Assembly: GCF_000003815.2 (NCBI RefSeq)
Contig: NC_049985.1
Coordinates: 13,654,844 to 13,718,843 of the forward strand
DNA length: 64,000 nt
Source: Branchiostoma floridae
Lineage: Eukaryota > Chordata > Leptocardii > Amphioxiformes > Branchiostomatidae
Reading direction: 5' to 3'
Numbering within the stretch: position 1 is the stretch's first letter; each line of letters starts with the position of its first letter. The translations under genes and the position numbers were made by a program. This document shows positions 42,701 to 62,344 of the stretch, one piece after another. The notes beneath the pieces are model-generated. The model saw nothing but the letters and a program-made list of their open reading frames with translations. It made no database searches and was not told where the DNA came from.

Positions 42701-45700
42701 TTCTGGCCGTAAGAGAACAAGCGAGTTTGCCTGTTAACCATCACTTTGTATGGTTCATGTCGTTGTGAGAAAACCGCTTGTGATCGCGTGCACTCCGCCG
42801 GTACCGAGACCCCATCTTATGTGGGCTCCAACCGGCGAACTAACGGCTTGCAGATCCTTGTCTGTGGTCTTAACATACATCGTAATTAGCATGTGTACTG
42901 ACTAATATCGTAATCATGCATGATGTGATCATAACTGCTTGTAAATGAATGTTATATAATCCAGTGGATCATTTAACTAATCACTGTTGTTCGCAGCCCA
43001 TTGATTTGCTAACAGTGTGATTATACTAAGGCTTATCTTAGAAAATTTCATCATTAAGTTGAATATCATACATTACCTTCCTTGCAACCAACACTTTCTG
43101 TGGAAAGCATGCTTCATGTTCTGATATCTTTACTCTCTTTTGACTGACTTCCTTTTCTCCACTTGTCTTATACAGTTTTATTCTGTTGTATAGTCATTTA
43201 GACTGGCAGTACTTCATCCTTTAGGTGGATAATGACGGAATGCTTTAGTCTGTATTTCTAATTTTTACCTCGTATATCAGACTGGTATTGGAGGTAGTAA
43301 TTTAGTGCATGTTGACTTTTCTAGAATTCGGTAGTACCACACAAGGCCCTGCTTGCTGCTAAAGTTTACATTGAGTGGTCATGTTGGATGGGGTCTTGTA
43401 CTGTTGGATCATTGTACAAAGCGTTACCCCAACTTTGCTTGAATACTCATGTGCCAGCAAGCATCCTCTAAGAGAAGTGGTGACTTACTGGCAGTGTAAA
43501 TGACTGCCTTCTGTGGACTCCCTCAGACAGCTCTCAATTCTGTACACCTCTGCTATGTTTCATTATGCAGCACTCTTACAAAAAGACTTCTAATTTGGAA
43601 TGGTCCTATTACTAGTCCATGAAAGTGTTTTCATTTTTTTCCCAGCTACACCTCTATGCTATATCTTTTCGACTTGACAGCAAAATGTTGAAGCCACAGT
43701 CCTCCTCAGCCCTCCTACTCAAGTTTTGTTTCTTCCCCATATGTACATGTGGTTTTCAAAGTTCACTGAAGAGTTAACTGGTTTGGGAGGTTTACGGATC
43801 ATTTACTGACTCAGAAGTAGGAAAGGGACTGAGCTTGGCTCATAAGAAGACTCCTGAAGCAAGGCACTTTGTTAAAGAACTCCCCAAAGCTTACTTGAGT
43901 CAGAATATCACAGCCATGTGTGTAGAGAGTCCACCAGTAATTGTCTTGAATCCCTCCTGATCAGTCCCTTGATGTTACACACTAATGGCAACATGTAACT
44001 TTGTCTCCCATGCCTACTGGGAAGGAAGTAAGGACAAATCTCTTCAACCTTTAATTCTTCATTCTGTCCAACTCTCTTTTGCTCTCCTGTGACTAGCAGA
44101 AGCAACTTTATGCTGACCTTCTCTTGATTCTGGTTCACTCTACAGGCAAGATCACGATTGTGAATACTCTGGATTATGAGGCATCCCAAGGCTACTACCT
44201 GACAGTGAAGGCGAGCGATGGCGGCATGCCCACACTCAGCGACATCACAACCGTTAGCATCAACGTTACCGATGTCAACGACAATGCCCCTGAGTTCAGC
44301 ATGCCCATGTACAGTGCCTCTATCAGTGAAGATGCTCACACAGGAGACAGTGTTATTCAGGTAAGACATCAACAGCAATCTAGATCCAGTTTATCACAGG
44401 CATCTGTTTTTACAGAGAGAGAGAGAGAATAAACTTTTTTGACTGACAACTTTTTTGGCTTTCCCCGAACATTAAAATCCTGATGAAACAAAGACAGGAA
44501 GCTTTCAAGTCAGGGGAGAATGACAGATACAAAGAATTACGTAACAAGGTGCAACGAATAATCAAGAGAGCGAGAGGAAACTTCTACAAGGACAAAGTCA
44601 AATCTCTAAAAAAAGAAAATCCCTCAAAATGGTATCAAATGCTTAAGTCCATGACCAACACAACTGGAAGAGAACTCACACTTAACATCGAAGGAACACC
44701 TACTGCTGACCACAAGGCAACAGCAAACGCCATTAACGAAGTGCTCTGTGCCGTGACATGTTCACTTGAAAAACTAGACCTGGGCAAACTACCCCCATTT
44801 CTTCCAGCGAAACCCCTAGAGGAAATTCAACCGTGGGAGGTCTACAATGAATTGCGCAACATCAATACGAGAAAAGCCGCTGGTCCCGACGACATTCCCA
44901 ACCGTATCATCAAAGAGTTCTCGTACGAGATTTCTACCCCGTTAACGCACATTCTCAATGCTTCACTTGCAGAAGGGGTTGTTCCTGTACAGTGGCGCCA
45001 AGCCAACATCGTTCCTCTGCCAAAAAGCCGCCCTCCGTCCATCGAGGAACTCCGACCAATCTCCCTCACACCAGTGCTGGCAAAGGTTGCGGAGAGATTC
45101 GTGGCGACCCGACTCTACTCAGACATTAAGGAAAACATCGACCCTACCCAATTCGGCTGTCTTGCAGGCCGGTCTACTACCCACTGCCTAGTAGATATTG
45201 TCAATCAACTTGCGAAAACCTCTGATGAGAGGGGTACAATCACTAGTCTCGTTACAACGGACTTTTCGAAAGCTTTCGATCGTGTCGATCACCTCCTAGC
45301 GGTTACCTGTCTGATCAACCTGGGCCTTCGACCCTCGCTCACGCGGTGGATATGCAGCTTCCTGACCGACCGGAAACAAAGAGTCCTTTACAAAGGAGTT
45401 CACTCGGATTGGTCAGTTACTACCTGCGGCCTTCCGCAGGGTACGGTGCTTGGTCCACTGATATTTCTTGCCCTTATTAACAACGCCAGTGTAGACGCCT
45501 TAGCAAGAAGGTGGAAATTTGTCGACGACCTTAATCTAGCAGAAAGCCGGAAAATCAGCGTAACCTCCAACCTCCAAACCGACCTCGACAATCTCGGCAC
45601 CTGGACAGAAAGTCATAAAATGAAGCTAAACCCAAAGAAGTGCAAAGCAATGCACGTTTACTTCTCTAAAGTCCCCCCGACGCTACCACCTTTATCTATC

Positions 45701-48700
45701 GCTGGTGAACCACTGAACATAGCCAAAGTCGTTAAACTACTTGGCTTATTTGTACAAGCGGACCTTGGCTGGCAAACTCACGTTGACCACGTACTGAAGT
45801 CAGGTAATAGGAAACTATTCCTGCTCCGACAGCTACGGCGTCTCAACCTTTCTCAAGAAGACCTTCTCACCTGTTATAAGACCTTGGTCCGACCGGCTTG
45901 CGAGTATGCCGTCGCTGCCTGGCACCCGGGACTCACAAGAAAACAGCACGAGAGAATCGAGACCATACAGAAAAGGGCTTGCCGGACAATACTAGGCCCC
46001 GCATACACATCCTACTCAGAGGCATGCAGCGTTCTTAACCTACCTACACTAGAAAGCCGACGCCGTCAGCTGTGCTACAAGTTTGCCAAACGCCTGCTAC
46101 ATTCAGAGACTTTTCGAGACTGGCTACCTCCATACCGCGGTGAGATCAGCGCCAGAACTACACGGTCATCACAACTACTGGACACTATCAAAACCCGTAC
46201 AGAGAGATACAGAAGAAGCCCCATCCCTTACATGACGAACCTTTTAAATGAACTGGACTCTTGCGATATGACTTCTGACTTCCCACTGTTTTAAAGTTGT
46301 AAGGTTGTGCATCTTGCGACCTTGCATTAGTGTTAAGTGATGTTTGCATAGAAATCACAAGTGTTGAATCAGATTTACAGTGTTTTGGATTTCTCTTCTC
46401 GTGCAATATTGACGTGCAATACTCAAAAGTGCAATATGATAATTATCACTTACTTTGTTAGTTTATAAATTCTATTGTAAACAACATTGCGACGATTTCT
46501 CACTTTTAAACTTTGTATACCGTGTAATATTTAGTGTGTGTGATAATTGTAAATACTCACCGCAATTCAGTCACTACAATGACTGCAAGTGTGATATGTT
46601 GTTTGTAATCGCTATGTCTCTATGTCAAATAAACCATTCATTATTAATACGTGTTCTTTAACAGGTGATGGCTACAGACAGAGACAGTCCACCAAATGCT
46701 CAAGTGACCTACACCATTGTTCGGGGTGATTCCAAAGGCCAGTTCAACATCGCACCCAAGCTTGGCATTGTTACTGTCAGCGGAGCTCTGGACAGGGAGG
46801 AGGTAGATACATTTCTCTTAAAGGCTTTCTGCACTTTGTTTAGTTTGTCGAAAACTTGTCAAACTGTAGTATCATGGAGCAATTTTCACTTTGGCTAAGA
46901 TAAAGCTCCGTCCTTATCTGTTCCAGATTCAGGCATACTCACTGACAGTACGTGCAAAGGACAGCGGTGCTTCACCACGCTACATGGACGTTGTGGTGAA
47001 TGTCGACGTCTTGGACATCAATGACAGCCCACCACAGTTCTCACAGGCCAACTACAGTGTGTTTGTGCAGGTTAGTAGCAACACACCTTACAAGGATACA
47101 TATCAACTTTTCACAACACCTACACACCTATGCCCACTGCATTTACCCATCTTTCATCATAGTGCTTTGTGTTGTTTTACACATGCTTTTTTATTGGATA
47201 TCTTCATATGGTAGTTTCTCAGAGAGCTTTCACCAAATACTTTTTGAACATATGCTTGCATCATCAGATGTTGTAATTCATTTAAATGTGATTCTCCTCT
47301 TTGTCTGCTTTAAAATCTTTGCTGTCTTGTTTCAGAGAGAGACTTTATTTTGTCCATGCTTCTTTCAAGCTCTTCTGTTTTGCCTCTTTGTTCTGCCCCC
47401 TAAAAGCCAAAGTCTTACAAGTCTTTTAAAATCCTATGTTACAAGGAGATCAAAACATAGATATTTCATTTTCCTCAAGTTCCCTCCAAGTGCAGAGCAA
47501 ACCGGTACATGCCCCATGTGATTTCTTTCAACTCATACACCCATTCCTTCTTCACTTTCCCTGTCTCTGTGCCATGGAAAGACCTGTTCTAAGGGGATGG
47601 AGTGCCAGTTCCCCCAGGGTGGAATGGTTAGTAAGGGACTAGACGTGTGCCTAAATGTAGTCACAGGCTGTTACCTACACTACAAAACTAAGGGAAAGGT
47701 CAGATGGCGCATGGTAGAGATGTTTACCTGCACAAGGGCTCCATCACCAGAGGTCTGACCTTCTGTTGGAGTGAGTCCAGCTATGAGAGATTAGAGTGTG
47801 CTGCTGCATGTGATTTGGATCTGCATGTCACTCAGTTGGCTAGCAACTTATCACTGCAGTATCACCTCACCTGATACATTTGGCTCATTATTAGACTTAG
47901 TTGAAAGACAACAGCAAGTTGATTACATATACATGTACAATGTGCTACCACCTTGCACTCACAAAACTTGACAGTATGGTGTATGGGAATGTTACAGATG
48001 GAAGCTAAGACTGAGTGGTACTTTTGACTTGTTGGTGGCTACTAATGTATATTCATATTGAAACAAATGATTTATGATACATTTTTGTTGTTTGCAGGAG
48101 AGCAAGCCCATTGGTACAAGCATCCTCATGTTCACAGTCAAAGATTTTGATGCTCCACAAAATGGACCCCCGTACACCTTTAGCATCATCAGTGGTAACC
48201 AAGGCAACGAGTTCCACATTGACCGCAGTGGCATCCTTCGCACGTCCGTTGTCTTCCAGTCTGACATGCGGCGCAAGTACAACCTACAAGTCCGAGTGGC
48301 TGACGCAGGAACGCCGTCCCTCTATGGCTATACCAACGTGGTTGTGGAGGTGATAGAGGAGAGCATGTACCCACCAGTCGTGACACCCCATCAGATCTCC
48401 ATCAGTTCCTTCAGGGATGACTTCCCTGGAGGTGTCATTGGCAAGCTGCATGCCACCGACAACGACATGTACGACAAGCTCACCTACAGCCTGGTCTCCA
48501 ACAACAAGCGGCTGTTTGGCGTGAACCCCAACGACGGAAAAATCATCGCCCAACCGGGATTGGACGTCGGCGAATACATTCTAAACATCAGTGTCAGCGA
48601 TGGCAAGTTCATCACGGCTGGAGAAGTCAGCGTGACGGTGAAGCTCGTCACCGATGAAATGCTTCGCAACAGCGTGACAGTAAGGTTCGCCAACATCCAA

Positions 48701-51700
48701 CCTGAGGAGTTCTTGTCCTCATACCAGAAGGAGTTCTTCCGCACGCTGCGCAGGCTGCTGAAGGTGAAGAACAAGAACATCATAGTTGTCAGTATGCAGC
48801 CTGTCGATGGCAACCTTGATGTTCTGTTCTGCATAGAAACCACAACTAAAGGCTCTCAGAAAGAAGACTACTACAAAGCTACAGCCTTGCGCCGTGAGCT
48901 AAACCAAACAGTGATGGACATTCAACAGAATGTTGGCCTTAGTGTGCTCCAGATCATCAGCGATTCTTGCTCACACAACAAGTGCCCAGTGGGAGCGTGT
49001 AGAGATATCTTGAATCTGGACATCCACGCCATTGCTGCCATCAGCACAGCGAAAATCAGCTTTGTTTCACCGCGCCACATGAGGGACTACGAATGCAAGT
49101 GTCCTGGTGGTTTGATCGGGAAGGACTGTAACCCATGCAACAGCAACCCCTGCCCGAGGTATAAGATGTGCCTGCAAGATCCCAAGTCCATCGAAGGCTT
49201 TGAGTGCGTCTGCCCAGACGGCACCTCGCCACCAAACTGCAACCAGCTGCCGTTTGATGGTAGGTTTCATTTTATCTTTTTGGCTTCCTATGTACTTAAT
49301 CAAAGAGAAGAAATTGTTGCTACAAGTGTTACATTTTTTTTGTCTTCCTTTACAGACAAGGGCCCGATGACATTCGGTGGGAACAGCTACATCAGGTACA
49401 CCCTGGCCAACAGTGTGGACCAGATGTCTACCCAATTGTCCCTCGCAATTCTTCCCAGAAGCCCCAATGGAAAGATCATGTACGCTCGGGGAGAGTACGA
49501 CTACAGTATTCTTGAGGTATGTTATCAACTTTGTTGTTCAAAAAGAGCCTGTTCCTTCTATAGACCTTTGTATGTAGACCTTAGACCAATCTGAGATTCA
49601 ACAAACACTTAAGTTACATAAAATGACGGCTTGTTTTATTTCTGTTTCAGTTGATCAATGGGTATCTGCAGTACAGATTCAACTGTGGTAGCGGTGAGGG
49701 GAAGGTAACCATGGAATTTGGGGGGTCAGAGGTCACTGATGGCAAGTGGCACTATGTGGAGGTTTCTCGCAACGGTGCCTACGCCGAACTGAAACTTGAT
49801 CACAAGTACATAGCAAGAGGCAGTGCCGCTGGCGAGAACAAAATCCTGAACTTGGATGACAACGACATCTACTTTGGCGCAGAGGTGGCCAACAGGCTGC
49901 GGAAGAAGCGTGCGGCAGTCGTCAGTAATGGTTTCCTTGGCTGTATGGATGACATGATGTTGAATGGGGAAAGGTTGCCACGTGCAGGAGCAAACAGTGT
50001 TGCAACTTTGAGGGACATGACCGATGTTGATTTCAATTGCAATGATGGGATGGAGACACTAGGCGTGTGCGGCAGCAACCCGTGCATGAACGGTGGGAGT
50101 TGTGCTGTGGTTAGTCCGTCCAATAGATACATCTGCAACTGCCTTCCGCGATTCAGTGGCGACAATTGCCAGATCGACACACAACCATGTAACTCCAACC
50201 CATGTAAGAATGGGGCCCGCTGCAAGAATTTGTTGAATGACTTCAAGTGTGAATGTCAGCGAGAATGGTATGGCAAGCGTTGCGAACACTCTACCTCATG
50301 TAACTGCTTTAACGGGGCGACCTGCTTGGACACACCAAGTGGAAAGACCTGCAGCTGCCCGGATAACTTCACGGGGGAAAAATGCCAAGAGGACGTCAAC
50401 GAATGTTCGCGCAATCCGTGCCAAAACGGTGCCACTTGCCACAACACCGAGGGGTCCTATTTCTGCAACTGCACTGCTAACACCAATGGCCTTCACTGTG
50501 AGAACATCATCGAGATGATCATGCCCAAAATTGAGTCCAACAGCATCAACATCGGACTGGAGGAGATAATCGGCATCATCTGCTGCATCATCTTCCTCCT
50601 CTTGCTAGTCATCATCTTCGTCATGGTCCGCAGGTGCAGGCAGAGGAGGAAACGTAATCCTCATATGAGCGACATCGTCGCCACCGGTGGCGACCCAAAC
50701 GGAATCATGATGACAGAGAAGAGGGATGACTACCACCGCGATGCCAAAATGGTCCACATCGACACCAACCTGGACGACTACAGACCACCGCTGCCTGCCA
50801 GACCCATCTCCTACACACCTAGCCTTTGTGGGAACTCACTGAATAATCTGAGTGACGGGGCGATGGGTGCCGAGGTGGAGCCTGTGTTCTCCTCCAGCAC
50901 GGACATGCTGGCCGTCAGAAATAAGAACCCTGCCATTGTGTGCAGCGTCGCACCAACGTTACCTCCACCCCCGCCTTCCAACTCAGCATCAGACAGTGAC
51001 TCCATTCAAAAGCCAGCTTGGGAGTTTGAGTGTCCCAACGTTGTTGAAGGATATGTAGAAAGTAAGTAACATCCTATCTGTGAAAACCTCACTTGTCACC
51101 TCATGTCATATACACCTGTCCTGTGCACCTTTGTCTCGTATCCAAAAGCAGGAGTACCTTTAAAATGTGAGTAGGACTAGACTGGAAAATTTTAGCACTT
51201 CTAGTAGGTGTTAGGAAAAGGCACTCACACAAGGTGTAGGTGGAAGCCGAAACAAGCCGTAGTCTTAGCTACTAACACGGTGGTTGTGGTAGCACAGAAA
51301 AAGAGCAGGCGGTAAGAGGGCGGCACATTTTTGAGTGTACTCCTCCTTTTGCAGGTAAAGTGAATGATGCGGATGCAGTGATGAACAACATAGCAAATGA
51401 TGAGATGCAGGTCTACAGGAATGAGGGAGGCAGTATGACTGACATGGTCTCCCTAAGTTCACTGCCCTCTGAATCATGTGATGAGGATAATATGCCAGGT
51501 ATGTCCTAGTGGAGGCCGTCGTTGGATCCTTCTTCAGGGGGAGCACCACTTCTTCTGTGTAGTCTGAGCACTCTCGAAACTAATGATCCATTTCACTTGT
51601 TCATCACTGTTCATCACTGCATGTTTCTGTGTGTTGTACCAACTATTCATCTATCTTTTAACCCTTCTTGAAGTCTATCTATATTGTTATAGATTAATAG

Positions 51701-54700
51701 CTGCTATCTTTATGTGTGATACTGAACCTCTTGATCTGTATGATTCTTTGGTGATAGGTTGATCTGCTTGTCATGTCATGCCATCCTCCATGCCTTACTG
51801 CCCTGTATTCTCCCCTCTCCATCAACAACCCTAACTACCCTCGCTATCTTCTTGTAGTTTCAGAGTATGAAATAGCGTCATAACCAACAGGAATGTTATG
51901 GGAAGAAGAGTCTATGTGTTAACCTTTCTTCCCAACCTTATGACATGTATTTAATGAGTGTAACATAACATTAAGGTTCAGTAGTGTGTCATTGTTGCCT
52001 GATGTTGGACAGGATAGTTGACTAGTCTTTCTTGTTCTTTAAAAGAACAGCTCTACAGACAGGCAACTAACCAATCATTCCCTCTCTCCATTCCACCTTC
52101 CGCTGTTTGCCCCACTGCCCAGATAACTTCAACAATCTTGACAAACCTGGAGGTACTGCTATAGTTTTAGTGTTGCTCTCCTTATGGTTATCCTGCCAGT
52201 CCAATCCAGGCAAAAACAGAGGCCAGGTTTCTTCTTGTTTTATAGGACAAAAAAATTGCTGCTCCGTGTTTGTGTGTTGTCGTTTGGACTTTGGAGCCTC
52301 AGTTTTTGCCTGTCTAAGTGTAGTAAGACTGAGATTGCAACAAAAAAAAAAGAGTTGACTGTCCTGCTAAGCCTACCACCTTTCACTCCTTTCTCTCCTC
52401 CCGCCTCTCTTGTGCACATCTGTAGGCAGAAAGCATGCAAAGTTGAAAACGTTCCAATCAGGATATACGTAAGTATGTGCACAAATTCCATCAAGGAGTT
52501 AAAGTTTGGCCCCAGGCCTCCATGAATGATCCCACATTCTCATGCATACAAAGCCTGTTGTCACTTTACAGTATGATGTGTCTCTTGAGATTTCTTGCCT
52601 TTTGTGACTGTACCCATCCAAGGTTGTATCTCTATCTCTACAGAGGAGAAGAAATCGTACTATAAAAAATTCAGCTTGTACGGTATGGTTACAGAAGAGG
52701 ACTCACCACTTCATTCGGTGGTTTAGATGTATGTCCCACCTCTTGCTTCTTCCAGAATGTCAAATTTTTCGTTGGTTTGTTTTCCTTTTTTCACCGGAAA
52801 AGACGTAGGAAGGTAAAAGGAAAAAGCTAGATTTTAACTCCTTCGTGGAACTTGCGTATGTACTGTGGCTTACTGTTTTGTGTCTTTGAGTAGTTCTCAG
52901 TGCGTGGAAGTTCAACCATACCCATGCACTGTGGACTGAAAGGTATTGTGTATCGTGGCAATACTAATGCACGCTATCAACGCAACAATTTGATACCAGT
53001 GAAAAAGCCTTAGTACTACACATTACCTGTTCAAAATGCATGACAGAAATAACATACAATGAACAGCAAATCGAATAACACTACGCTGAACTTAAGTATT
53101 TACAGTACAGTGATGCTTATCTATTTTGCACGATTTGTCTTTTCCTCCTGTCTCTTTGACTTTCTGTCACATTTCTTCCCCATTCCGTGTTCAAGATGTC
53201 TACTAATAAACCCTCTTTCACTGTCCTTTCACATGCTGTCGGTATATGTAGAAAAAGTCAACAACTTACAGCAAGCCAAAGGTATCTTTACTATCATTTG
53301 CAGTATCACTTGATATAGCAATATGAAGACACGGAGAGCTTATGTAATTACATGTTTGACACTTTTCTGTCTGTAGACTATGATATACATTGTTACGAGA
53401 CGGATGGGAAACATGCGGATATGTTTAGAAGGCAGCTATACAGATTGATCTAGACACACCCTCAGGTAGAGTACAGCTCACCCACCAGTATTCCTTATGG
53501 GTGAGGGGGAGGATTCCTCAGACCTGTTAAGGCTACAAACATTCTGCAAACATTTATGTCTACACATATGGAAAACACAACTAGCAAGGTCACATAAATG
53601 TACAATCCTTTCGAAGGAAGTCACTTAAAAAAGCACAAACAAAACACAAGCAGAGTTCCTTGACAGGTCTGTAATTCTAAGGCTGGTGGCATTGGCTTCA
53701 CTTAAGCTGTCTGTGGTGAATGGACTGCTCTTTCAGAGCGACGTTGCTCATGGTTGCAAAACTTCCCATGGGAGTAAGCTTACCTGGCTACTTCTCTGGC
53801 GCTTTTCACTTTACTATTGGTTGGTTGTCAAGGGACTCATCACTCTCCAAGCATCTTTTGTAAAATCAGGATAAGCAATTTGAAAACTTTTTCAAGCTTT
53901 ACTAAATCAATTCTTATTCTCCTCTCTTTTTTGAAGGTTTATAGCAACTTTGTATGTTTCTATGTGATATTTATGTTCTGTTCGTTTATACAACATTGAT
54001 ATCCCTTGAGCCATGATTATGCCCTTGGATTTTGAAGAAGTTGACGAAAACTATTTGTGCATCAATGAGGAAAACTCCTAGTTTATTTTTGTAGCTACTC
54101 AAATTTCTACTATCTATAAATTCTACTTAGATGTAGAAAGTACCTGGAAAGCTGCCAGAATAGCCCCATGAACTCCTTTGGAGAGAGTAGGTTTGACTGT
54201 GGTATGGCCTTACATTGAACCCTACTTTATTCTCCCTCCTCTTGGGGTCTGCGTGAGTGCTGAAGCCATGCTCCCCTTCTTACACTTCATAAATCATTGG
54301 GTCCCCAGGGGGACTGGAACAATTTCCTATGCCATATTGCCAATGGATGTAATAAAGCCCCCAGTGTGTAGTTTGGAAAACCACTCTCCTAAATTGAGCT
54401 GGGCTGGGTCGAAATTGCATTCACGGCTTTGGAAAATGTGCTTCTCAATGTGTGCCACAGATTCCTTGGGAACATATTGATTTTTTTGTGTCAGACATAG
54501 GGACAATTTCTTCTGAATACAGCAAATAGGTCTACACGTGACATCTGTATCTGCTTAGTACACACTAGAAATACAATATGACAGAGGTGGTTGCGCAAGA
54601 TGCCTCTTCCTTAGCAGCGCATTGCATATTGGGATATTATCAAGAGAAGGATTTTTGTAGAATACATGTATATATGATGTCTAACCAATGTATCTCCCCT

Positions 54701-55456
54701 CCCCCTCCAGGGTACCACTGGGACTGTTCTGATTGGATGCCCAGCAGTAACCTGCCCAATATCACAGAAGTGCCAATGTGTGAGATGCCAGACTCCTCCT
54801 CCTCCTCCAACAACCACAGCCTCCCCCACCCACATCCTCACAACCTCCACTACGACCCCAACGTCTACAGCGACGGTTACCAAGGCGACCCCAGCGACTA
54901 CACGGACCACGAGTACGTCACCCAGTATCCCGATGACGAGTACGGTGCTGGGGAGAGCGACTTCCCTCCGCCGCCAGACGAGAACTATCTACAGTACCCA
55001 GACGACTATCAGGATGGGTTTGCGCCGATCCAGCCTCCCTCCAACATGCCCGTCCCCGAAGGCGACCACATGTACCGCCCGCAGCACTACCACCCCAACC
55101 AGTACCTCCCCGCCCACCACCTATCCGACGACCAGATTCCGATGACGGAGCAGGAAGACCATGACTACGTCTACCCGCCCAGCTACCAGGAGTCGATGAG
55201 CCAGTTGCCGCCCGGATACGATGATTACGGCAATGGTAGCGAGTATAATGCGGACTATGAACAATCTAACATCGACGACGTCTCTGTCTCCATGTACACC
55301 ACGTCTAACGCGTCAGTGTCAGACCTGTCGGGGGCTGACATGGACGAGAGTGAGGTTGCACTGAGTGACTACGAGAGTGGCGGTGAGGGAGACAACGAGG
55401 GAAGCCAGGGTAACACGCGAAGCATGCCGCAAAACGACTTGCACACGGAAGTCTGA
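1..55456 (+). CDS. FAT: FAT1/2/3-type atypical cadherin, spliced gene (5' part outside window)
   Basis: Overall gene entry; coding exons are listed separately. FAT proteins are giant single-pass adhesion receptors of the plasma membrane that act in cell adhesion, planar polarity and actin control. Seen here: 24 phase-compatible exons (11,151 coding bases, divisible by 3) giving 26 cadherin repeats, the FAT juxtamembrane region, EGF, one laminin-G, four EGFs, a transmembrane helix and a roughly 440-residue tail. A single LamG followed by EGFs, the tail motifs SIQKPAWEF and [11 protein letters not shown] and the C-terminal HTEV point to the FAT1/2/3 (fat-like) branch; FAT4 and Drosophila Fat carry two LamG domains. 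About eight N-terminal repeats and the start codon are missing because the window opens inside an exon. One short exon is unaccounted for between 22446 and 24638. I cannot separate FAT1 from FAT2 or FAT3; a pre-duplication single orthologue is likely if this is amphioxus. Confidence 0.95.
800..4340 (+). other. FAT intron (3.5 kb)
   Basis: Bounded by donor GTAAGT at 800 and acceptor TTTACTTTCCAG ending at 4340. I see no coding exon, RNA gene or mobile element in it. There is a perfect 16-base palindrome CCAGTCAGCTGACTGG near 1309, within otherwise ordinary AT-rich sequence. Small open frames on both strands show no family motif. Confidence 0.75.
4341..4655 (+). CDS. FAT: FAT exon B: cadherin repeat halves
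   Basis: Phase 1 in and phase 1 out. It completes the third repeat of the window ([14 protein letters not shown] up to linker DVNDNAP) and encodes the first half of the next ([16 protein letters not shown] up to FFQINQNSG). The acceptor is a clean polypyrimidine-CAG; the donor is GTTAGT at 4656. The split glycine codon (g|gt) is the recurrent FAT exon junction placed just after the FxIxxxTG strand. Confidence 0.95.
5281..5445. mobile_element. MITE-like element with imperfect terminal inverted repeats
   Basis: The left end CCCTGGAGGCCATCCAGG and the reverse complement of the right end, CCCTGGGAGCCAGACAGG, align over about 35 bases with scattered mismatches; both continue through CGGG.AGCTAG. 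The 165-base unit is flanked by TA on each side (5279-5280 and 5446-5447), as expected for a Tc1/mariner-type target duplication. There is no coding capacity, so it would be non-autonomous. Family not recognised; the inverted repeats and TA flanks are what I can see. Confidence 0.55.
11372..11471. other. Assembly gap (100 N)
   Basis: Exactly 100 N, the usual placeholder for a gap of unknown size, within a FAT intron. No exon is needed here by the phase chain. Confidence 0.95.
14050..14111 (+). CDS. FAT: FAT exon C: short cadherin exon with non-AG acceptor
   Basis: A 62-base exon encoding [20 protein letters not shown], the conserved TTxxLDRExxxxY strand that exon B lacks. Phase 1 in and phase 0 out fit both neighbours exactly. 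The donor is GTATGT at 14112. The bases before the exon read TGTGCAT|GT where TGTGCAG|GT would be expected, and no AG lies between the upstream in-frame stop (14022-14024) and the exon. A downstream AG at 14078-14079 would keep frame but delete ten residues of the motif. Exon identity is firm; the exact 5' edge depends on the anomalous acceptor. Confidence 0.8.
14112..22130 (+). other. FAT intron (8.0 kb)
   Basis: Donor GTATGT at 14112, acceptor TGTTGTTGTGCAG ending at 22130. It holds a 53-base perfect hairpin palindrome at 21837-21889. No exon or RNA gene is recognised. The 138-codon minus-strand open frame at 16901-17317 has no family motif. Confidence 0.7.
21837..21889. repeat. Perfect palindrome, 26-base arms with a 1-base centre
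   Basis: The left arm begins ACTTTTACCACTTCCTGAAA and its reverse complement follows after a single G. All 26 pairs match and pairing stops at 21836/21890 (c opposite c). It lies about 240 bases upstream of a FAT exon, inside an intron. It could be a fold-back element, a cruciform-forming site or a cloning or assembly fold-back; sequence alone does not decide. Confidence 0.85.
22131..22445 (+). CDS. FAT: FAT exon D: cadherin repeat end and most of the next repeat
   Basis: Phase 0 in and phase 0 out. It encodes [11 protein letters not shown] up to linker DVNDNSP, completing the repeat begun in exon B, then most of the following repeat ([34 protein letters not shown]) up to QQYNLK. The donor GTATAG at 22446 is weak. 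The repeat stops just before its VxATDxG strand, and the next recognised exon begins after it, so a short exon is missing. Confidence 0.93.
22446..24638 (+). other. FAT intron interval that should hide one short exon
   Basis: Exon D ends at YNLK and exon E starts at [11 protein letters not shown], both in phase 0. A cadherin repeat needs roughly 12-20 more residues between them (the VxxxDxG strand), so a phase 0/0 exon of about 36-60 bases is expected. I found no convincing candidate in the readable bases; the 365-N gap at 22475-22839 is the likely location. A pyrimidine-rich stretch lies near 23090-23120. Confidence 0.65.
22475..22839. other. Assembly gap (365 N)
   Basis: 365 N beginning 29 bases after a FAT exon. 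The length, different from the 100-N placeholders, suggests an estimated gap size. It probably hides the missing short cadherin exon. Confidence 0.95.
24639..24849 (+). CDS. FAT: FAT exon E: cadherin linker and half repeat
   Basis: The acceptor CTCCCCTCCAG ends at 24638. It encodes [15 protein letters not shown], the linker of the previous repeat, then the first half of the next repeat ([35 protein letters not shown]). Phase 0 in; phase 1 out with donor GTAGGC at 24850. Confidence 0.93.
24850..25241 (+). other. FAT intron (392 bases)
   Basis: AT-rich intron between donor GTAGGC and acceptor TTTTCTCCTCCAG. I see nothing else in it. Confidence 0.8.
25242..25517 (+). CDS. FAT: FAT exon F: cadherin repeat halves
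   Basis: Phase 1 in and out. It completes one repeat ([17 protein letters not shown], linker DSNDHRP) and begins the next ([19 protein letters not shown]). The donor GTACGT at 25518 is strong. The linker carries H in place of the usual N but keeps the D and N calcium ligands. Confidence 0.94.
25518..30119 (+). other. FAT intron (4.6 kb)
   Basis: Donor GTACGT at 25518, acceptor ATTCCCTATCCTGCAG ending at 30119. The flanking exons join in phase 1 in the middle of a cadherin repeat with no residues missing, so no further exon is expected. No mobile element or RNA gene recognised. Confidence 0.75.
30120..31615 (+). CDS. FAT: FAT exon G: long exon with four complete cadherin repeats
   Basis: A 1496-base exon, phase 1 in and phase 0 out. 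It finishes one repeat, carries four complete repeats and opens a further one. The linkers in order are TISNNAPP (degenerate), [22 protein letters not shown] (no calcium ligands) and DINDNAP. Two of five linkers lack the DxNDN signature, so those joints are predicted to bind little or no calcium. The donor GTAAGT is at 31616. Continuing to 31717 would only read intron. Confidence 0.96.
31765..31942 (+). CDS. FAT: FAT exon H: cadherin repeat core
   Basis: Phase 0 in after acceptor GTAATTCCAG and phase 1 out with donor GTCAGT at 31943. It encodes [35 protein letters not shown] and [11 protein letters not shown], the middle of one repeat. A 149-base intron separates it from exon G. Confidence 0.94.
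31943..36853 (+). other. FAT intron (4.9 kb)
   Basis: Donor GTCAGT, acceptor TGTAATTAG ending at 36853. It contains a G9 run near 33013 and ordinary AT-rich sequence. A GC-richer patch near 35320-35490 yields a 154-codon minus-strand open frame with no recognisable motif. No exon is demanded by phase or by the cadherin fold. Confidence 0.7.
36854..37075 (+). CDS. FAT: FAT exon I: cadherin linker and half repeat
   Basis: Phase 1 in and out. It encodes [20 protein letters not shown], where the calcium linker is replaced by VMNKAMP, then the first half of a repeat ([27 protein letters not shown]). The DxD motif in the half repeat is also degenerate ([11 protein letters not shown]). Donor GTGAGT at 37076. 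Confidence 0.94.
37076..37455 (+). other. FAT intron (380 bases)
   Basis: AT-rich intron bounded by GTGAGT and a TTTTTTCATCTTTCAG acceptor. Nothing else seen. Confidence 0.8.
37456..38394 (+). CDS. FAT: FAT exon J: cadherin repeats
   Basis: A 939-base exon, phase 1 in and out. It finishes a repeat ([15 protein letters not shown], linker DINDVAP), carries two complete repeats (linkers DLNDNAP and the degenerate QSANTHSP) and opens another ([24 protein letters not shown]). Donor GTTAGT at 38395. Confidence 0.95.
38519..38733 (+). CDS. FAT: FAT exon K: cadherin repeat end and start
   Basis: Phase 1 in, phase 0 out. It encodes [15 protein letters not shown] up to linker DKNDNTP, then [17 protein letters not shown], the opening strand of the next repeat. 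Donor GTAGGA at 38734. Introns on both sides are about 125-155 bases. Confidence 0.94.
38887..39037 (+). CDS. FAT: FAT exon L: cadherin repeat core
   Basis: Phase 0 in, phase 1 out. It encodes [19 protein letters not shown] and [19 protein letters not shown]. The usual LDRE is replaced by LTGKE, so this repeat has a weaker calcium site. Donor GTGAGC at 39038. Confidence 0.93.
39151..40226 (+). CDS. FAT: FAT exon M: three complete cadherin repeats
   Basis: A 1076-base exon, phase 1 in, phase 0 out. It ends one repeat with the degenerate linker GPDDIPP and carries three whole repeats with linkers DANDNKP, DVNDSPP and DVNDNSP. Canonical DxD and LDRE motifs are present ([37 protein letters not shown]). 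Donor GTATGG at 40227. Confidence 0.96.
40227..40735 (+). other. FAT intron (509 bases)
   Basis: Donor GTATGG, acceptor CTTTGCTCTTCAG ending at 40735. No other feature seen. Confidence 0.8.
40736..40889 (+). CDS. FAT: FAT exon N: cadherin first half
   Basis: Phase 0 in, phase 1 out. It encodes [36 protein letters not shown] and FLLDKDTG. Donor GTAGGG at 40890. Confidence 0.93.
41143..41376 (+). CDS. FAT: FAT exon O: cadherin second half and next start
   Basis: Phase 1 in and out. It encodes [18 protein letters not shown], linker DVNDNPP and [15 protein letters not shown] up to ATDPDM. Acceptor TTCTTGCACACAG; donor GTATGT at 41377. Confidence 0.94.
41377..41925 (+). other. FAT intron (549 bases)
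   Basis: Ordinary AT-rich intron between GTATGT and ACACTTTGTTTCAG. Nothing else seen. Confidence 0.8.
41926..42312 (+). CDS. FAT: FAT exon P: cadherin repeat and half
   Basis: Phase 1 in and out. It encodes [29 protein letters not shown], linker DINDNPP, then [15 protein letters not shown] and [15 protein letters not shown] up to IGSYSG. Donor GTGACC at 42313 is atypical at positions +4 to +6, but reading on gives a stop after 13 codons. Confidence 0.93.
42313..44145 (+). other. FAT intron (1.8 kb)
   Basis: An imperfect GC-rich hairpin lies near 42796-42837 (CGCCGGTACC against GGTTGGAGCC arms). No exon is missing by phase. Nothing else recognised. Confidence 0.7.
44146..44360 (+). CDS. FAT: FAT exon Q: cadherin second half and next start
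   Basis: Phase 1 in, phase 0 out. It encodes [18 protein letters not shown], linker DVNDNAP and [17 protein letters not shown]. Donor GTAAGA at 44361. The following intron carries the retrotransposon insertion. Confidence 0.94.
44460..46642 (+). mobile_element. 5'-truncated CR1/L2-like non-LTR retrotransposon in a FAT intron
   Basis: Contains the reverse transcriptase frame described separately, plus a roughly 350-base 3' untranslated part with AATAAA near 46629 and an AT-rich end (CATTATTAATA). The apurinic endonuclease and ORF1 normally found upstream are absent, so it is 5' truncated, which is usual for target-primed insertion. The left edge is estimated from an in-frame stop near 44438 and loss of similarity. 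A (GA)n run lies just outside at about 44417-44430. I did not find a convincing target duplication. It is in the same orientation as the host gene. Confidence 0.75.
44483..46294 (+). CDS. Reverse transcriptase of CR1/L2-like retrotransposon (603 codons, uninterrupted)
   Basis: RNA-dependent DNA polymerase of a non-LTR element. Motifs in order: [15 protein letters not shown] (about residues 134-148), [47 protein letters not shown] (first catalytic Asp), [24 protein letters not shown] (catalytic Asp pair, FVDD in place of the common YADD), [18 protein letters not shown] and [12 protein letters not shown]. The C-terminal CR1-type thumb region follows ([32 protein letters not shown]). No endonuclease precedes it; the start ATG is just the first in the truncated copy and the upstream frame closes near 44438. 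Lack of stops or frameshifts over 1.8 kb suggests a young insertion. Clade assignment within CR1/L2/Rex1 is uncertain. Confidence 0.9.
   Translation: MKQRQEAFKSGENDRYKELRNKVQRIIKRARGNFYKDKVKSLKKENPSKWYQMLKSMTNTTGRELTLNIEGTPTADHKATANAINEVLCAVTCSLEKLDLGKLPPFLPAKPLEEIQPWEVYNELRNINTRKAAGPDDIPNRIIKEFSYEISTPLTHILNASLAEGVVPVQWRQANIVPLPKSRPPSIEELRPISLTPVLAKVAERFVATRLYSDIKENIDPTQFGCLAGRSTTHCLVDIVNQLAKTSDERGTITSLVTTDFSKAFDRVDHLLAVTCLINLGLRPSLTRWICSFLTDRKQRVLYKGVHSDWSVTTCGLPQGTVLGPLIFLALINNASVDALARRWKFVDDLNLAESRKISVTSNLQTDLDNLGTWTESHKMKLNPKKCKAMHVYFSKVPPTLPPLSIAGEPLNIAKVVKLLGLFVQADLGWQTHVDHVLKSGNRKLFLLRQLRRLNLSQEDLLTCYKTLVRPACEYAVAAWHPGLTRKQHERIETIQKRACRTILGPAYTSYSEACSVLNLPTLESRRRQLCYKFAKRLLHSETFRDWLPPYRGEISARTTRSSQLLDTIKTRTERYRRSPIPYMTNLLNELDSCDMTSDFPLF
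46665..46802 (+). CDS. FAT: FAT exon R: cadherin core
   Basis: Phase 0 in and out. It encodes [38 protein letters not shown]. Acceptor GTGTTCTTTAACAG ends at 46664, directly downstream of the retrotransposon tail. Donor GTAGAT at 46803; a 124-base intron follows. Confidence 0.92.
46927..47070 (+). CDS. FAT: FAT exon S: cadherin end and next start
   Basis: Phase 0 in and out. It encodes [18 protein letters not shown], linker DINDSPP and [11 protein letters not shown]. Acceptor TTATCTGTTCCAG; donor GTTAGT at 47071. Confidence 0.94.
47071..48097 (+). other. FAT intron (1.0 kb)
   Basis: Donor GTTAGT, acceptor TTTTTGTTGTTTGCAG. A 173-codon plus-strand open frame across 47000-47521 is mostly an off-frame reading of exon S and intron. 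Nothing else recognised. Confidence 0.75.
48098..49259 (+). CDS. FAT: FAT exon T: last cadherin repeats, FAT juxtamembrane region, first EGF
   Basis: Phase 0 in, phase 1 out. It encodes the last two cadherin repeats (degenerate linker EESMYPP; final repeat ends near [11 protein letters not shown]). Next comes the roughly 100-residue FAT-family region ([30 protein letters not shown]), typical of FAT1/2/3 between the last cadherin repeat and the EGF/LamG module. A partial cysteine cluster ([14 protein letters not shown]) and a full EGF ([31 protein letters not shown]) follow. Donor GTAGGT at 49260. Confidence 0.96.
49356..49516 (+). CDS. FAT: FAT exon U: laminin-G domain, first part
   Basis: Phase 1 in, phase 0 out. 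It encodes [18 protein letters not shown] and [20 protein letters not shown], the first strands of a laminin-G domain. Acceptor TCTTCCTTTACAG; donor GTATGT at 49517. Confidence 0.95.
49651..51061 (+). CDS. FAT: FAT exon V: rest of LamG, four EGFs, transmembrane helix, start of tail
   Basis: Phase 0 in, phase 1 out. Rest of LamG ([17 protein letters not shown] to DMTDVDFNC) with an internal basic run [10 protein letters not shown]. Then four EGF repeats starting at [29 protein letters not shown] and the calcium-binding type [13 protein letters not shown]. The transmembrane helix [18 protein letters not shown] is followed by the basic stop-transfer RRCRQRRKR. The cytoplasmic part holds [24 protein letters not shown] and the FAT1-like [15 protein letters not shown]. 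Donor GTAAGT at 51062; intron retention would add only two residues before a stop. Confidence 0.96.
51062..51354 (+). other. FAT intron (293 bases)
   Basis: Donor GTAAGT, acceptor CTCCTCCTTTTGCAG. Nothing else seen. Confidence 0.85.
51355..51498 (+). CDS. FAT: FAT exon W: cytoplasmic tail segment
   Basis: Phase 1 in and out (144 bases, so skipping keeps frame). It encodes [17 protein letters not shown] and [19 protein letters not shown]. The SLSS..SES(C/G)D pattern matches the FAT1 tail just before its GYHWD block. Donor GTATGT at 51499. Confidence 0.92.
51858..51883 (+). CDS. FAT: Candidate alternative terminal exon (tail ending VSEYEIAS)
   Basis: The acceptor CGCTATCTTCTTGTAG ends at 51857 and a second AG six bases further (after TTTCAG) is also in phase. 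Entering in phase 1 gives VSEYEIAS (or EYEIAS) and then TAA at 51881. It would replace the whole terminal exon and remove the HTEV PDZ ligand. Strong acceptor, but short coding content; inference only. Confidence 0.3.
52123..52152 (+). CDS. FAT: Candidate 30-base cassette microexon ([10 protein letters not shown])
   Basis: Preceded by a long pyrimidine tract with GTTTGCCCCACTGCCCAG and followed by GTACTG at 52153. It enters and leaves in phase 1, adding [10 protein letters not shown] between exon W and the terminal exon with no change of frame. It resembles the small in-frame insertions reported in vertebrate FAT1/FAT3 tails. The donor is only moderate. Confidence 0.45.
52426..52468 (+). CDS. 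FAT: Candidate alternative tail exon (43 bases)
   Basis: The acceptor tract TCTCTTGTGCACATCTGTAG is followed by phase-1 codons [14 protein letters not shown] and a consensus donor GTAAGT at 52469. It leaves in phase 2, so it could not join the terminal exon in frame. Joined to the island at 52644 it would end GEEIVL; read through the donor it stops at once (TAA). Either way it would make a shortened tail. Confidence 0.3.
52644..52726 (+). CDS. FAT: Candidate alternative terminal exon ending in a PDZ-ligand-like SVV
   Basis: The acceptor TATCTCTATCTCTACAG ends at 52643. Phase 1 entry gives [15 protein letters not shown] and [11 protein letters not shown], then TAG at 52724. The last three residues fit the class I PDZ ligand pattern S/T-x-V, as does the regular C-terminus HTEV. 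It would offer a short, basic, tyrosine-rich tail that still ends in a PDZ ligand. Inference from phase and composition only. Confidence 0.4.
53252..53281 (+). CDS. FAT: Candidate 30-base cassette exon ([10 protein letters not shown])
   Basis: AG at 53250-53251 and donor GTATCT at 53282. Phase 1 in and out, adding [10 protein letters not shown] without a frame change. The acceptor tract is weaker than at 52123, so chance is a real alternative. Confidence 0.25.
53377..53453 (+). CDS. FAT: Candidate alternative terminal exon (25 codons)
   Basis: The acceptor CACTTTTCTGTCTGTAG ends at 53376. Phase 1 entry gives [17 protein letters not shown] and RRQLYRLI before TAG at 53451. No similarity to a known FAT tail is recognised; reported because the acceptor is good and the phase fits. 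Confidence 0.22.
54711..55456 (+). CDS. FAT: FAT terminal exon: C-terminal cytoplasmic tail
   Basis: Phase 1 in after acceptor CCCCTCCCCCTCCAG; stop TGA at 55454-55456. It begins [16 protein letters not shown], closely matching the FAT1 tail block. It contains FPPPPDENY, a match to the Ena/VASP EVH1-binding FPPPP pattern, many DDY/NY tyrosines, an acidic [18 protein letters not shown] to [11 protein letters not shown] stretch, and ends HTEV, a class I PDZ ligand identical to the end of FAT1. It links the cadherin to actin regulators and PDZ scaffolds (known for FAT1; inferred here). His, Pro and Asp codons are strongly enriched. Confidence 0.96.
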
Positions 55457-59695: not shown

Positions 59696-60372
59696 CTACC
59701 AAAACCTGTTCAGCTTGCTCAAGTACATAGTCTTTCCTATTAGAAATATGATGACTATACAAATACAGGTAACTATACAAGCGGTGCTATAACTGTCCCC
59801 ATCCTGTGGTTTGGGCGTTAACTTCCAATTTGAAATGTGCTTCATGCCCTGAGTCGACTGGTTGCGAGACTTAGACTGAGTTGATGATCGAGAAACGTTG
59901 AATATCTGCGGAAGACGTCTTTCGATCAAGTCCTCTCTAACAAGGAGGTACTGTTCTCTTACAATGTCCAGATGTTCCAGTCCTTTGAATACTGCCGGAT
60001 TGAAGAGGTTATATCCTGGTATGAAGAAGTGCGGCAGATACCTGTTATCGATACACAACACCAACTCATCGATCAGGTACACCAAACAAGTGACCAGGTT
60101 CTCCTTCTCCCAAAAATTAACCTCCGGCCTCTTGGCGATTGCGTGAAGCAAGACCGTTTTCAGATGGTAAGAGGCGAAACCGCTGTCTGTACCAACGACG
60201 TTTATTGGTATTACCTGGAGCTTGATGTATTTCAGGCATCGGAGGCAGTCTTTGCGGCATGTGGTTGCGTGGTTGCCGCTATCTGTCGGATTCAGCATGT
60301 CACTTTTGAAGAGATCCATTTCTACTTGAGAAAAAGACAGCCTCCATAGCTTATGGCCGCCAGGATCTTTGT
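59696..60372 (-). CDS. cGLR: cGAS-like receptor exon 5: Mab-21 C-lobe and C-terminal tail anchor
   Basis: Acceptor TATGTCTTTTCTAG, then a GAC codon split 1/2 with exon 4. It encodes KLWRLSFSQVEMDLF, the shortened zinc-thumb region NHATTCRKDCLRCLKY, SGFASYHLKTVLLHAI, NLVTCLVYLIDELV and YLPHFFIPGYNLFNP, which follow the order of the cGAS C-lobe. After a polar linker comes STACIVTCICIVIIFLIG (about residues 587-604), a single hydrophobic helix, then KTMYLSKLNRFW and the stop at the low end. This gives tail-anchored topology with the enzyme on the cytosolic side. It converges on FAT, about 2.9 kb away. Confidence 0.92.
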
Positions 60373-60531
60373 CTAGAAAAGACATAGGAAAGGTTAATAA
60401 AACGTATCCAAACACGTTAGCTCTAGTAAGAAAGCACTATATTAGAAGCAAGTCTTTTATTTACATCGTCAGTAGATTTTGGAAGGATGAAAGAATACTC
60501 GGAAAGGCAACTACACAGGAGTGAAATTTAC
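60373..60531 (-). other. cGLR intron 4
   Basis: 159-base intron with minus-strand donor GTAAAT and acceptor TTTTCTAG. Nothing else seen. Confidence 0.85.
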
Positions 60532-60777
60532 CATAAGGTGCTGACTTGGCCACCGTATGAAGGACAGTCCTCTCCATTGCCCGGATTTGTCGCTCTGTAA
60601 GCCAACCTGTGCATGTGACGCCGTATCCCCATCCTTCAGTACACCGTGGCCACGGTTTTGGCAGTTCCAGAGCGAGCACAAGGTCGATGGATATGTGTGT
60701 CCCTTCCTGTTCCTTGGAGACCACTAGAGTAACCGCCGGGCATCCATCTTTCTCCTCCTCCAGCTCAACATCCAGTC
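60532..60777 (-). CDS. cGLR: cGAS-like receptor exon 4: third catalytic acid
   Basis: The minus-strand acceptor GCGTATTATTAG precedes GLDVELEEEKDGCPAV, then THISIDLVLALELPKPWP. The Asp in ISIDLVLALE (about residue 341) aligns with the third catalytic aspartate of cGAS (ISVDITLALE). RQIRAMERTVLHTV and KSAPY follow. The donor GTAAAT leaves phase 1. Length and phases fit exons 3 and 5 exactly. Confidence 0.93.
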
Positions 60778-60959
60778 CTAATAATACGCGGAAAGAGTTT
60801 AGTTCAATCCCACTTCTGACACCATCTAACTTACATTCACCATCCAGTTAAACATTTCACACAAAAATATATGGAAAAGAATATTTAAAAAGTAACGTTA
60901 GATACACATGCAGCTGAATTTCTGACGCTGAAAAGAAAATGTACATGGTACTGACTAAC

Positions 60960-61054
60960 CTTTGAAAATGCCGGCCTCGGCTTTTCTCAAAGAATTGACG
61001 GCCCGTTCCACAAGACCTCTAAACCGGTTCAACAGTTTCTTTGGAGACAGATAC
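60960..61054 (-). CDS. cGLR: cGAS-like receptor exon 3
   Basis: 95 bases, phase 2 in and phase 1 out. Acceptor TAAAAGATAAGGTT region reads as ATCTTACAG on the minus strand. It encodes YLSPKKLLNRFRGLVERA and SLRKAEAGIFK, matching the LSASKMLSKFR helix region of cGAS. Donor GTTAGT. Confidence 0.9.
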
Positions 61055-61254
61055 CTGTAAGATAAAAGGCTGCATGCTCTTATAATATCTATATGGGATG
61101 ATGATACGAGGATGCGGTGCTGTACTATTGGTCCATTCTTAACCAATCAAAGTGGCTTACGCATCCCTAGGTAGCACATATTCAAAGCCATGTAAACATG
61201 GACGTACAGAAGGGTTTTGCCCTTTCCCCTCTTCATATTTTTCATCAAACTCAC
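61055..61254 (-). other. cGLR intron 3
   Basis: 200-base intron with minus-strand donor GTGAGT and acceptor ATCTTACAG. Nothing else seen. Confidence 0.85.
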
Positions 61255-61415
61255 CCGTCAGGAGTTAAGTAGCTTGCGAGTGAAGTACTGTTGTTCTTTG
61301 GCTTCACGGCCACCATTCCAAGACTGGGCTCTACCTCATCCAACTCCACCACTACCTCGTCCTCCCCGTGGATACGGATACAGAACATGAAGTCATACTC
61401 GTCCGTCGTGTCAAC
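61255..61415 (-). CDS. cGLR: cGAS-like receptor exon 2: first two catalytic acids
   Basis: Phase 0 in, phase 2 out. Begins VDTTDEYDFMFCIRI; Glu and Asp of EYDFMF (about residues 230 and 232) correspond to the metal-binding pair of cGAS (EFDVMF). It continues VVVELDEVEPSLGMVAVKP and SLASYLTPDG. Acceptor TCCTTATCTCCAG, donor GTGAGT, both on the minus strand. Confidence 0.93.
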
Positions 61416-61672
61416 CTGGAGATAAGGAGGAAGTAAGGTACTAATCTCCAAGTTGATCATACGGTAGCATAAAAGTGAAGGCGGCCTAGGAGTGTGTATG
61501 GCTACACGTGCAACGTTAACGTTAGATCCTTCTTGTGTATATATGTTCCCAGCTGAATTAAAGGTTTCATATCGAAATGATCCTAAATAGTTCCTTGAAG
61601 TTACAGGTGGCTTGAGTAACTACATGCACTACAAGTGAAATCAACTACATGTTCATATGCTGTTAACGTTAC
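61416..61672 (-). other. cGLR intron 2
   Basis: 257-base intron with donor GTAACG and acceptor TTATCTCCAG on the minus strand. Nothing else seen. Confidence 0.85.
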
Positions 61673-62344
61673 CTTTAGTCGTTCGAAGTAGCTTCCAGAA
61701 TTCAGTCTCTGGAACTGGAATATGTCCCCTTCTCCTTCGCGTGCCGCAGTCTTCTTAATTTCTTCGGCGATTCCGTCAACAATTGGATTGTATAACTTTG
61801 ACGTACTCGACCTATCCTCTTGTGAAATCCGGACAAGCTCGGTCATTGCTCCCTGTAACTTTATCCTGAGCTGCGTTTCCTTAAAGTGTAAATTTCTTCG
61901 TATTGTCTGTTTGTTCGGTTTGCACTTGTTGGTAGTATTTGTGTTTCGTTGTGAATGAGTGCTTCTAAATGGCGAAGGACCTCTCCGGTGGTCTCCACCT
62001 CTGTCAGTCACTTCATCTTTGAGATTTTGGGACTTCTTGTTGCTCTTCTCTAGATGTGTCTCCGAGTCTGGCGTTTCCTTTACTAGTGCAGGTTTGCCGG
62101 CGTCCTCAGTATCACTCAAGACGTGCTTTTCATCAAGTGGTCTGGTAGCTTTCTTAAAGTTATCTCCCACACGGCTTTTCTCCGTCTTGTGTGATTCTCT
62201 ATTCCTTGATGGCGTCACAGTTTCAACTGATGTTGACCCTTCTTCGCGTGCCGTTTGCGACGGGTGGTTTCTGAATCCAGCAGGTAACCCACGTTTCCAT
62301 GTTGCGCCGCCAACAGGTGTTTTCTGTCGACCACATCGTGGCAT
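61673..62344 (-). CDS. cGLR: cGAS-like receptor exon 1 (start uncertain): basic N-terminus and GS motif
   Basis: Part of a five-exon gene of 1851 bases (about 616 residues). cGAS-like receptors are nucleotidyltransferases of the Mab-21/OAS fold that make a cyclic dinucleotide second messenger on binding nucleic acid and signal through STING. This exon has a long polar, basic, probably disordered N-terminus, then the helix QTIRRNLHFKETQLRIKL and, at its end, LNSGSYFERLK: the GS active-site motif, equivalent to TGSYYEHVK in cGAS. The start chosen is the ATG giving MPRCGRQKTPVGG, with G at -3. The frame stays open upstream to a good acceptor at 62471-62472, so either a 42-codon N-terminal extension from another exon or a 5' UTR junction exists there. 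Exon ends in phase 0 with donor GTAACG. Confidence 0.85.

Follow-up and report, generated by a model that had tools for sequence, protein, structure and literature searches.

Can a cGAS-like sensor be built into a membrane by its own C-terminus? Where cGAS resides bears on how self-DNA is told from invading DNA, and its location in mammals is a matter of debate, as the available text of PMC9496985 has it. The question is raised by a gene of the lancelet Branchiostoma floridae that lies in the window, the whole 64,000-nucleotide stretch analysed here (C7:13654844-13718843, in a searched genome of 513 Mb and 431 contigs). A sequence-only reading had described the gene as a catalytically complete cGAS-like enzyme with a C-terminal tail anchor, and knew of no described membrane-anchored cGAS-like receptor (cGLR).

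Gene structure

The cGLR gene lies on the minus strand and runs from an ATG at 62344 to a stop codon that ends at 59696, so that the span originally proposed is correct. All junctions of its five exons are GT-AG, the exons join in phase, and the spliced translation is an open frame of 616 amino acids. Its features are as follows:

61673..62344, minus strand: exon 1, residues 1-224, with the basic N-terminus and the GS motif SGSYFERLK
61255..61415, minus strand: exon 2, with EYD, the first two catalytic acids (E230 and D232)
60960..61054, minus strand: exon 3, NTase domain, YLSPKKLLNRFR
60532..60777, minus strand: exon 4, with ISIDLVLAL, which holds the third catalytic acid (D341)
59696..60372, minus strand: exon 5, with the C-lobe (Mab-21_C), linker, hydrophobic helix and stop codon
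59789..59902, minus strand: linker after the C-lobe, 38 residues (549-586), net +4, absent from the paralogue on contig C11
59735..59788, minus strand: predicted transmembrane segment STACIVTCICIVIIFLIG, residues 587-604 (18 residues)
59699..59734, minus strand: C-terminal element KTMYLSKLNRFW, residues 605-616 (12 residues), net +3, followed by the stop codon
59538..59543, minus strand: poly(A)-like signal ATTAAA, by consensus match only, starting at the 153rd base past the stop codon

Residues 1-165, within exon 1, carry a net charge of +15 (pI 10.3), and the Met-Pro-Arg start is common to the window protein and the C11 paralogue. Elsewhere in the window, positions 1-55456 are covered by a large gene on the plus strand, which by eye resembles cadherins and is oriented towards the cGLR gene; its stretch at 49627-51066 contains laminin G and EGF domains. 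A LINE-like open frame of 615 residues at 44447-46291 encodes a reverse transcriptase domain (RVT_1, E 1.8e-27) and apparently sits in an intron of this gene; for the frame at 54569-55453, Pfam gives no match.

Identity of the enzyme

Both Mab-21 domains are detected by Pfam, the NTase domain (PF03281) at residues 219-414 (E 1.5e-31) and the C-lobe (Mab-21_C, PF20266) at residues 430-517 (E 3.7e-21). The GS motif stands at residues 217-218 and the acids E230, D232 and D341 are all present: at the level of motifs, the enzyme is as complete as had been claimed from SGSYFERLK, EYD and ISID. Since these catalytic motifs are intact, the protein presumably acts as a nucleotidyltransferase.

Among solved structures, its best sequence relatives bear the name cyclic GMP-AMP synthase (E 3.3e-41 to 7.5e-37); by PDB code these chains are those of mouse and human. 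Two cGAS-like receptor 1 chains come next (E 5e-26 and 7e-21), and MAB21L1 (E 3e-11), MB21D2 (E 1.2e-4) and MID51 (E 0.18) are more distant. Three alignments with solved chains keep the GS motif, all the catalytic acids, and the columns WRLSFS and SYH, which contact the bases in cGAS. When the protein is aligned with cGAS chains, none of the four ligand columns of the vertebrate zinc thumb (H-C-C-C) holds H or C. With cGAS chains as best relatives and zinc ligands lacking, the window protein is, as classified by alignment, a cGLR near cGAS that is distinct from zinc-thumb cGAS. A different H..C..C..C cluster, HAxTCRKDCLRC (NHATTCRKDCLRC; 60236-60274, residues 425-437), is kept in both lancelet paralogues and sits close to the zinc-thumb site of vertebrate cGAS.

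A strongly hydrophobic tail

The spliced frame contains the helix that the sequence-only reading had pointed out: 18 hydrophobic residues, STACIVTCICIVIIFLIG, at 587-604 of 616, followed by exactly 12 residues. This is the single hydrophobic segment of the protein, at most about 30 residues from the C-terminus. The best 19-residue Kyte-Doolittle mean in the tail is 2.50, against a maximum of 1.37 elsewhere (the last 60 residues set aside), and the 17-residue core of the segment has a GRAVY of 2.91. The Kyte-Doolittle profile gives no second transmembrane segment or signal peptide, and the N-terminus is strongly basic; this profile and an insertion scale were the measures used. A Pfam match to DUF5654 that falls short of the cut-off (E 0.012) spans the helix alone. 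The structure model of exon 5 has a mean pLDDT of 38.5, too low for interpretation, and its low-confidence secondary structure shows a helix at the hydrophobic segment.

We compared the tail with three null models. Dinucleotide shuffles of the local DNA (n = 5,000) never reached a mean of 2.4; 50 of them reached 1.6 and 97 were open over 60 codons. Codon shuffles of the tail (n = 20,000) likewise gave no case at 2.4, and 376 at 1.6. Presumed non-coding stretches of the window yielded 7,054 read-outs, of which 3 reached 2.4, 164 reached 1.6, 372 were open over 60 codons and none was both open and at 2.4 or above; these stretches were picked by eye and may include small cadherin exons, and the read-outs overlap and are not independent. 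The hydrophobicity of the helix exceeds chance, and the proposed C-terminal tail anchor is upheld by its sequence, with a Kyte-Doolittle mean that is rarely or never reached in the three nulls. Codon usage of the tail was also scored and falls within the non-coding range: an equal or higher score occurs in 22% of 382 presumed non-coding windows, from stretches likewise picked by eye, and the N-terminal region scores lower still.

Origin of the tail

Among the best matches listed, the genome holds at least two close cGAS-like genes, that of the window and one on contig C11 (C11:2518526-2521599). The five-exon layout recurs in the C11 paralogue, which has an intact triad and a catalytic part 66% identical to that of the window protein (243 of 370 aligned positions). 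Three donors of its exon 3 give open frames, of 570, 580 and 590 residues; we used the 590-residue model because its exon 3 donor position matches that of the window gene. The paralogue stops 11 residues beyond a shared RLP and has no hydrophobic tail. In full-length cGAS chains (507 and 522 residues), 27 and 28 residues follow the matched stretch, which puts their ends at about the same place as that of the C11 protein. Because the paralogue and these chains end just past the C-lobe, the simplest history is that the tail was probably gained in the window gene, through extension beyond an old stop codon; alternatively, a tail may have been lost from the C11 paralogue.

Other sources for the tail were considered. 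An inserted repeat or transposon is unlikely, since a genome search that skips very common words turned up the tail DNA nowhere else. A match on C2 (43% over 35 residues, E 0.008) was rejected as a second gene with the same tail, as 13% of 500 shuffles did equally well at the DNA level. Relatives were also sought in viral contigs, and none was confirmed there. As for the other end of the C11 protein, its N-terminus is a 45-base tandem repeat of 12.4 copies (L028:2068-2619), which encodes units like GSGRKSPDEAGATGK and carries a net charge of +27 across 202 residues.

Mab-21 and STING genes elsewhere in the genome

The genome has 21 exon matches to the Mab-21 C-lobe, and only that of the window gene is accompanied by a C-terminal helix in the match-bearing frame, the one frame that this survey read (a helix encoded in a separate exon further on would escape it). 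One of the 21, L048, has a helix at the N-terminus, another, L056, reaches N, and the maximum in all the others is at or below 1.66. L048 (C18:11340525-11343809) is a 396-residue Mab-21 frame with a weaker NTase match (E 7.7e-7), and is possibly a relative of the MIEF/ITPRIP type.

At C5:7.51-7.62 Mb, cGLR-like genes form a cluster with members on either strand (L030 to L036). Five of its members, L032 to L036, all have frames with GSM[YF]EGT and EFD, combined with SIDVDLVL in four cases and PIDVDLVP in one; judging from these motifs, several of the clustered genes look catalytically complete. The available text of a cGLR survey presents gene clusters as an exception found in insects (PMC9980059). 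STING-like exons occur in one place, on C2, with three exon matches of which two are above the cut-off (best E 7.5e-5). A review table, in the text available, already gives two cGAS homologues for B. floridae (dsDNA, 2'3'-cGAMP) and two STING candidates (PMC10855445), so that the existence of cGAS homologues in lancelets is in itself no novelty.

Predicted membrane targeting and a proposed mechanism

From the hydrophobic tail we infer that the window protein inserts into a membrane. As to which membrane, rules for mammalian tail anchors are given in the accessible part of PMC5450235: a strongly hydrophobic anchor with little charge in its tail is directed preferably to the ER, and a positive tail draws towards mitochondria and peroxisomes, although hydrophobicity is able to override charge; the ACBD5 tail, when lowered to +2.9, went to mitochondria. 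Given insertion, the very high hydrophobicity of our tail makes the ER, by these rules, the destination that we would favour by a little, and the mitochondrial outer membrane a possible but rather doubtful one. The call for the ER is not clean, because the C-terminal end is at +3, to be compared with the ACBD5 tail.

The likely product of the gene, in our view, is a cGAS-like receptor whose nucleotidyltransferase site is intact and which has acquired a tail anchor at its C-terminus. Such a protein would be synthesised in the cytosol, its helix would be handled by the guided-entry (GET/TRC) system, and it would be inserted with its N-terminus in the cytosol, most likely at the ER and otherwise at the mitochondrial outer membrane. 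The part ahead of the helix, of about 66 kDa, would thus face the cytosol and be held off chromatin; a cyclic dinucleotide, probably cGAMP-like, would be made beside membranes that bear STING or exposed pathogen nucleic acid; and the tail-less C11 paralogue would be the soluble sensor. The fuller proposition is a functioning membrane-integral cGAS-family synthase, with an anchor derived from a former 3' UTR after duplication and with labour split between a soluble sensor and one at the STING-bearing ER or the mitochondrial membrane. To this we would give slightly less than an even chance.

Alternative explanations

The best rival is a damaging extension: loss of the stop codon may mainly cut the abundance of the protein, its hydrophobic end being recognised by quality control and the protein degraded or poorly expressed, with any membrane insertion incidental. 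The 68 additional codons look like read-through of a former 3' UTR, because the paralogue and the cGAS chains end after the C-lobe; codon usage in the tail is not clearly coding; and, in the portion of PMC11502859 at hand, abundance was lowered by 56.1% of 2,335 tested nonstop extensions, the more hydrophobic ones. However, such hydrophobicity is rare in presumed non-coding read-outs (3 of 7,054), the arrangement of a 17-18 residue core and a short basic end is that of a working tail anchor, and the catalytic part is well kept relative to the C11 paralogue, which together make mere damage unlikely. We find it similarly improbable that the main product is soluble, through an alternative 3' end or a splice form that lacks the helix, and the anchored form a minor isoform. 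There is a precedent in OAS1, whose p42 and p46 forms differ by C-terminal isoform choice (PMC8357416, in the text available), and exon 5 does hold unused donors. By splice-donor score, the best of these are 60215 (6.9), 60042 (5.6) and 59963 (5.3), and the donors in use range from 6.7 to 10.3. Yet 60215 and 60042 lie within the Pfam C-lobe and would cut it. The best donor for skipping the helix, 59963, corresponds to residue 528, which lies past residue 517, the last one in the Pfam C-lobe match, and before the paralogue-aligned end, but it would drop about 20 paralogue-aligned residues, it scores under the weakest donor used, and no partner exon was recognised further on. From 59903, where the aligned C-lobe ends, to the helix at 59788, every donor scores -0.82 or lower.

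It seems very improbable that the protein lacks catalytic activity and serves as a membrane adaptor in the manner of MIEF1/2 or ITPRIP. Other membrane-anchored Mab-21 proteins are of this kind, L048 combines an N-terminal helix with a lower NTase score, and MID51 is among the solved relatives, if only at E 0.18; the window protein, however, has the GS motif and three acids, finds its closest relatives in cGAS enzymes, and bears its anchor at the opposite end from MIEF1/2 and ITPRIP. A further idea is that the anchor is real and serves the encounter with ligand, by letting the enzyme survey mitochondria or endomembranes for nucleic acid of viral or mitochondrial origin, or by keeping it away from nuclear DNA. 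Membrane targeting gives OAS1 p46 access to sites of viral replication (PMC8357416, text available), binding to plasma-membrane PIP2 is reported to hold human cGAS back from self-DNA (PMC9496985, text available), and the N-terminus of the window protein is strongly basic. The present data fit proximity to STING equally well, and neither role is required, since cGAMP diffuses; we regard ligand encounter as a real possibility, if clearly under an even chance.

Comparison with known systems

Tail-anchored or transmembrane cGLRs were sought in the open-licence literature, and none was named in the titles or abstract openings among the matches listed. In the main texts of PMC9980059, PMC12424679 and PMC10732462, "transmembrane" is used of STING or of methods and never of cGLRs; in that of PMC9980059 the word occurs twice, both times of STING. 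The claim that no membrane-anchored cGLR had been described thus survives for tail anchors in the literature searched, and is narrowed by Mab-21 relatives with an anchor at the N-terminus, by PIP2-bound human cGAS and by OAS1 p46.

Several of these relatives help to place the window protein. OAS1 has the NTase fold class of cGAS and makes 2-5A; MIEF1/2 and the ITPRIP family have an N-terminal anchor and a degenerate active site, and are not cyclases; MAVS is an immune adaptor and not an enzyme. With vertebrate cGAS (CGAS/MB21D1) the window protein shares the NTase domain and Mab-21 C-lobe, the GS motif, the three acids, the WRLSFS and SYH columns, the CRK[DE]C motif of the C-lobe and a basic N-terminus, which in cGAS is disordered (PMC9496985, text available); unlike cGAS, it lacks the zinc-thumb ligands and has an additional linker and transmembrane tail. 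The C11 paralogue resembles it in exon layout, triad, the HAxTCRKDCLRC cluster and 66% of aligned catalytic positions, but ends past the C-lobe, with no hydrophobic tail, and begins with a tandem repeat. The cGLRs of other animals agree with it in domain layout; stand-alone enzymes make up 87% of cGLRs, and the appended parts named in the accessible text are, in contrast to a membrane helix, TPR, ankyrin and multi-cGLR fusions (PMC9980059). OAS1 p46 resembles the window protein as an enzyme that senses nucleic acid and has an extension for membrane targeting at its C-terminus, although it binds membranes through a prenylated C-terminus and not a helix (PMC8357416, text available). The Mab-21-containing MIEF1/2 (MiD51/49) and ITPRIP family function at mitochondria or in the release of calcium from the ER (PMC7718949, text available); the window protein differs from that type in its C-terminal anchor and intact triad. 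MAVS is also tail-anchored, and is common to mitochondria and peroxisomes (PMC5450235, text available).

Set against these systems, a cGLR that combines a complete catalytic site with a tail anchor appears to be a new form, the cGLR kind and the membrane targeting of relatives by other means being already known. Of the two lancelet paralogues, which share exon layout and triad, one is apparently soluble and the other apparently anchored; the pair offers a natural test of anchoring, and could show whether STING signalling gains when enzyme and receptor share one membrane.
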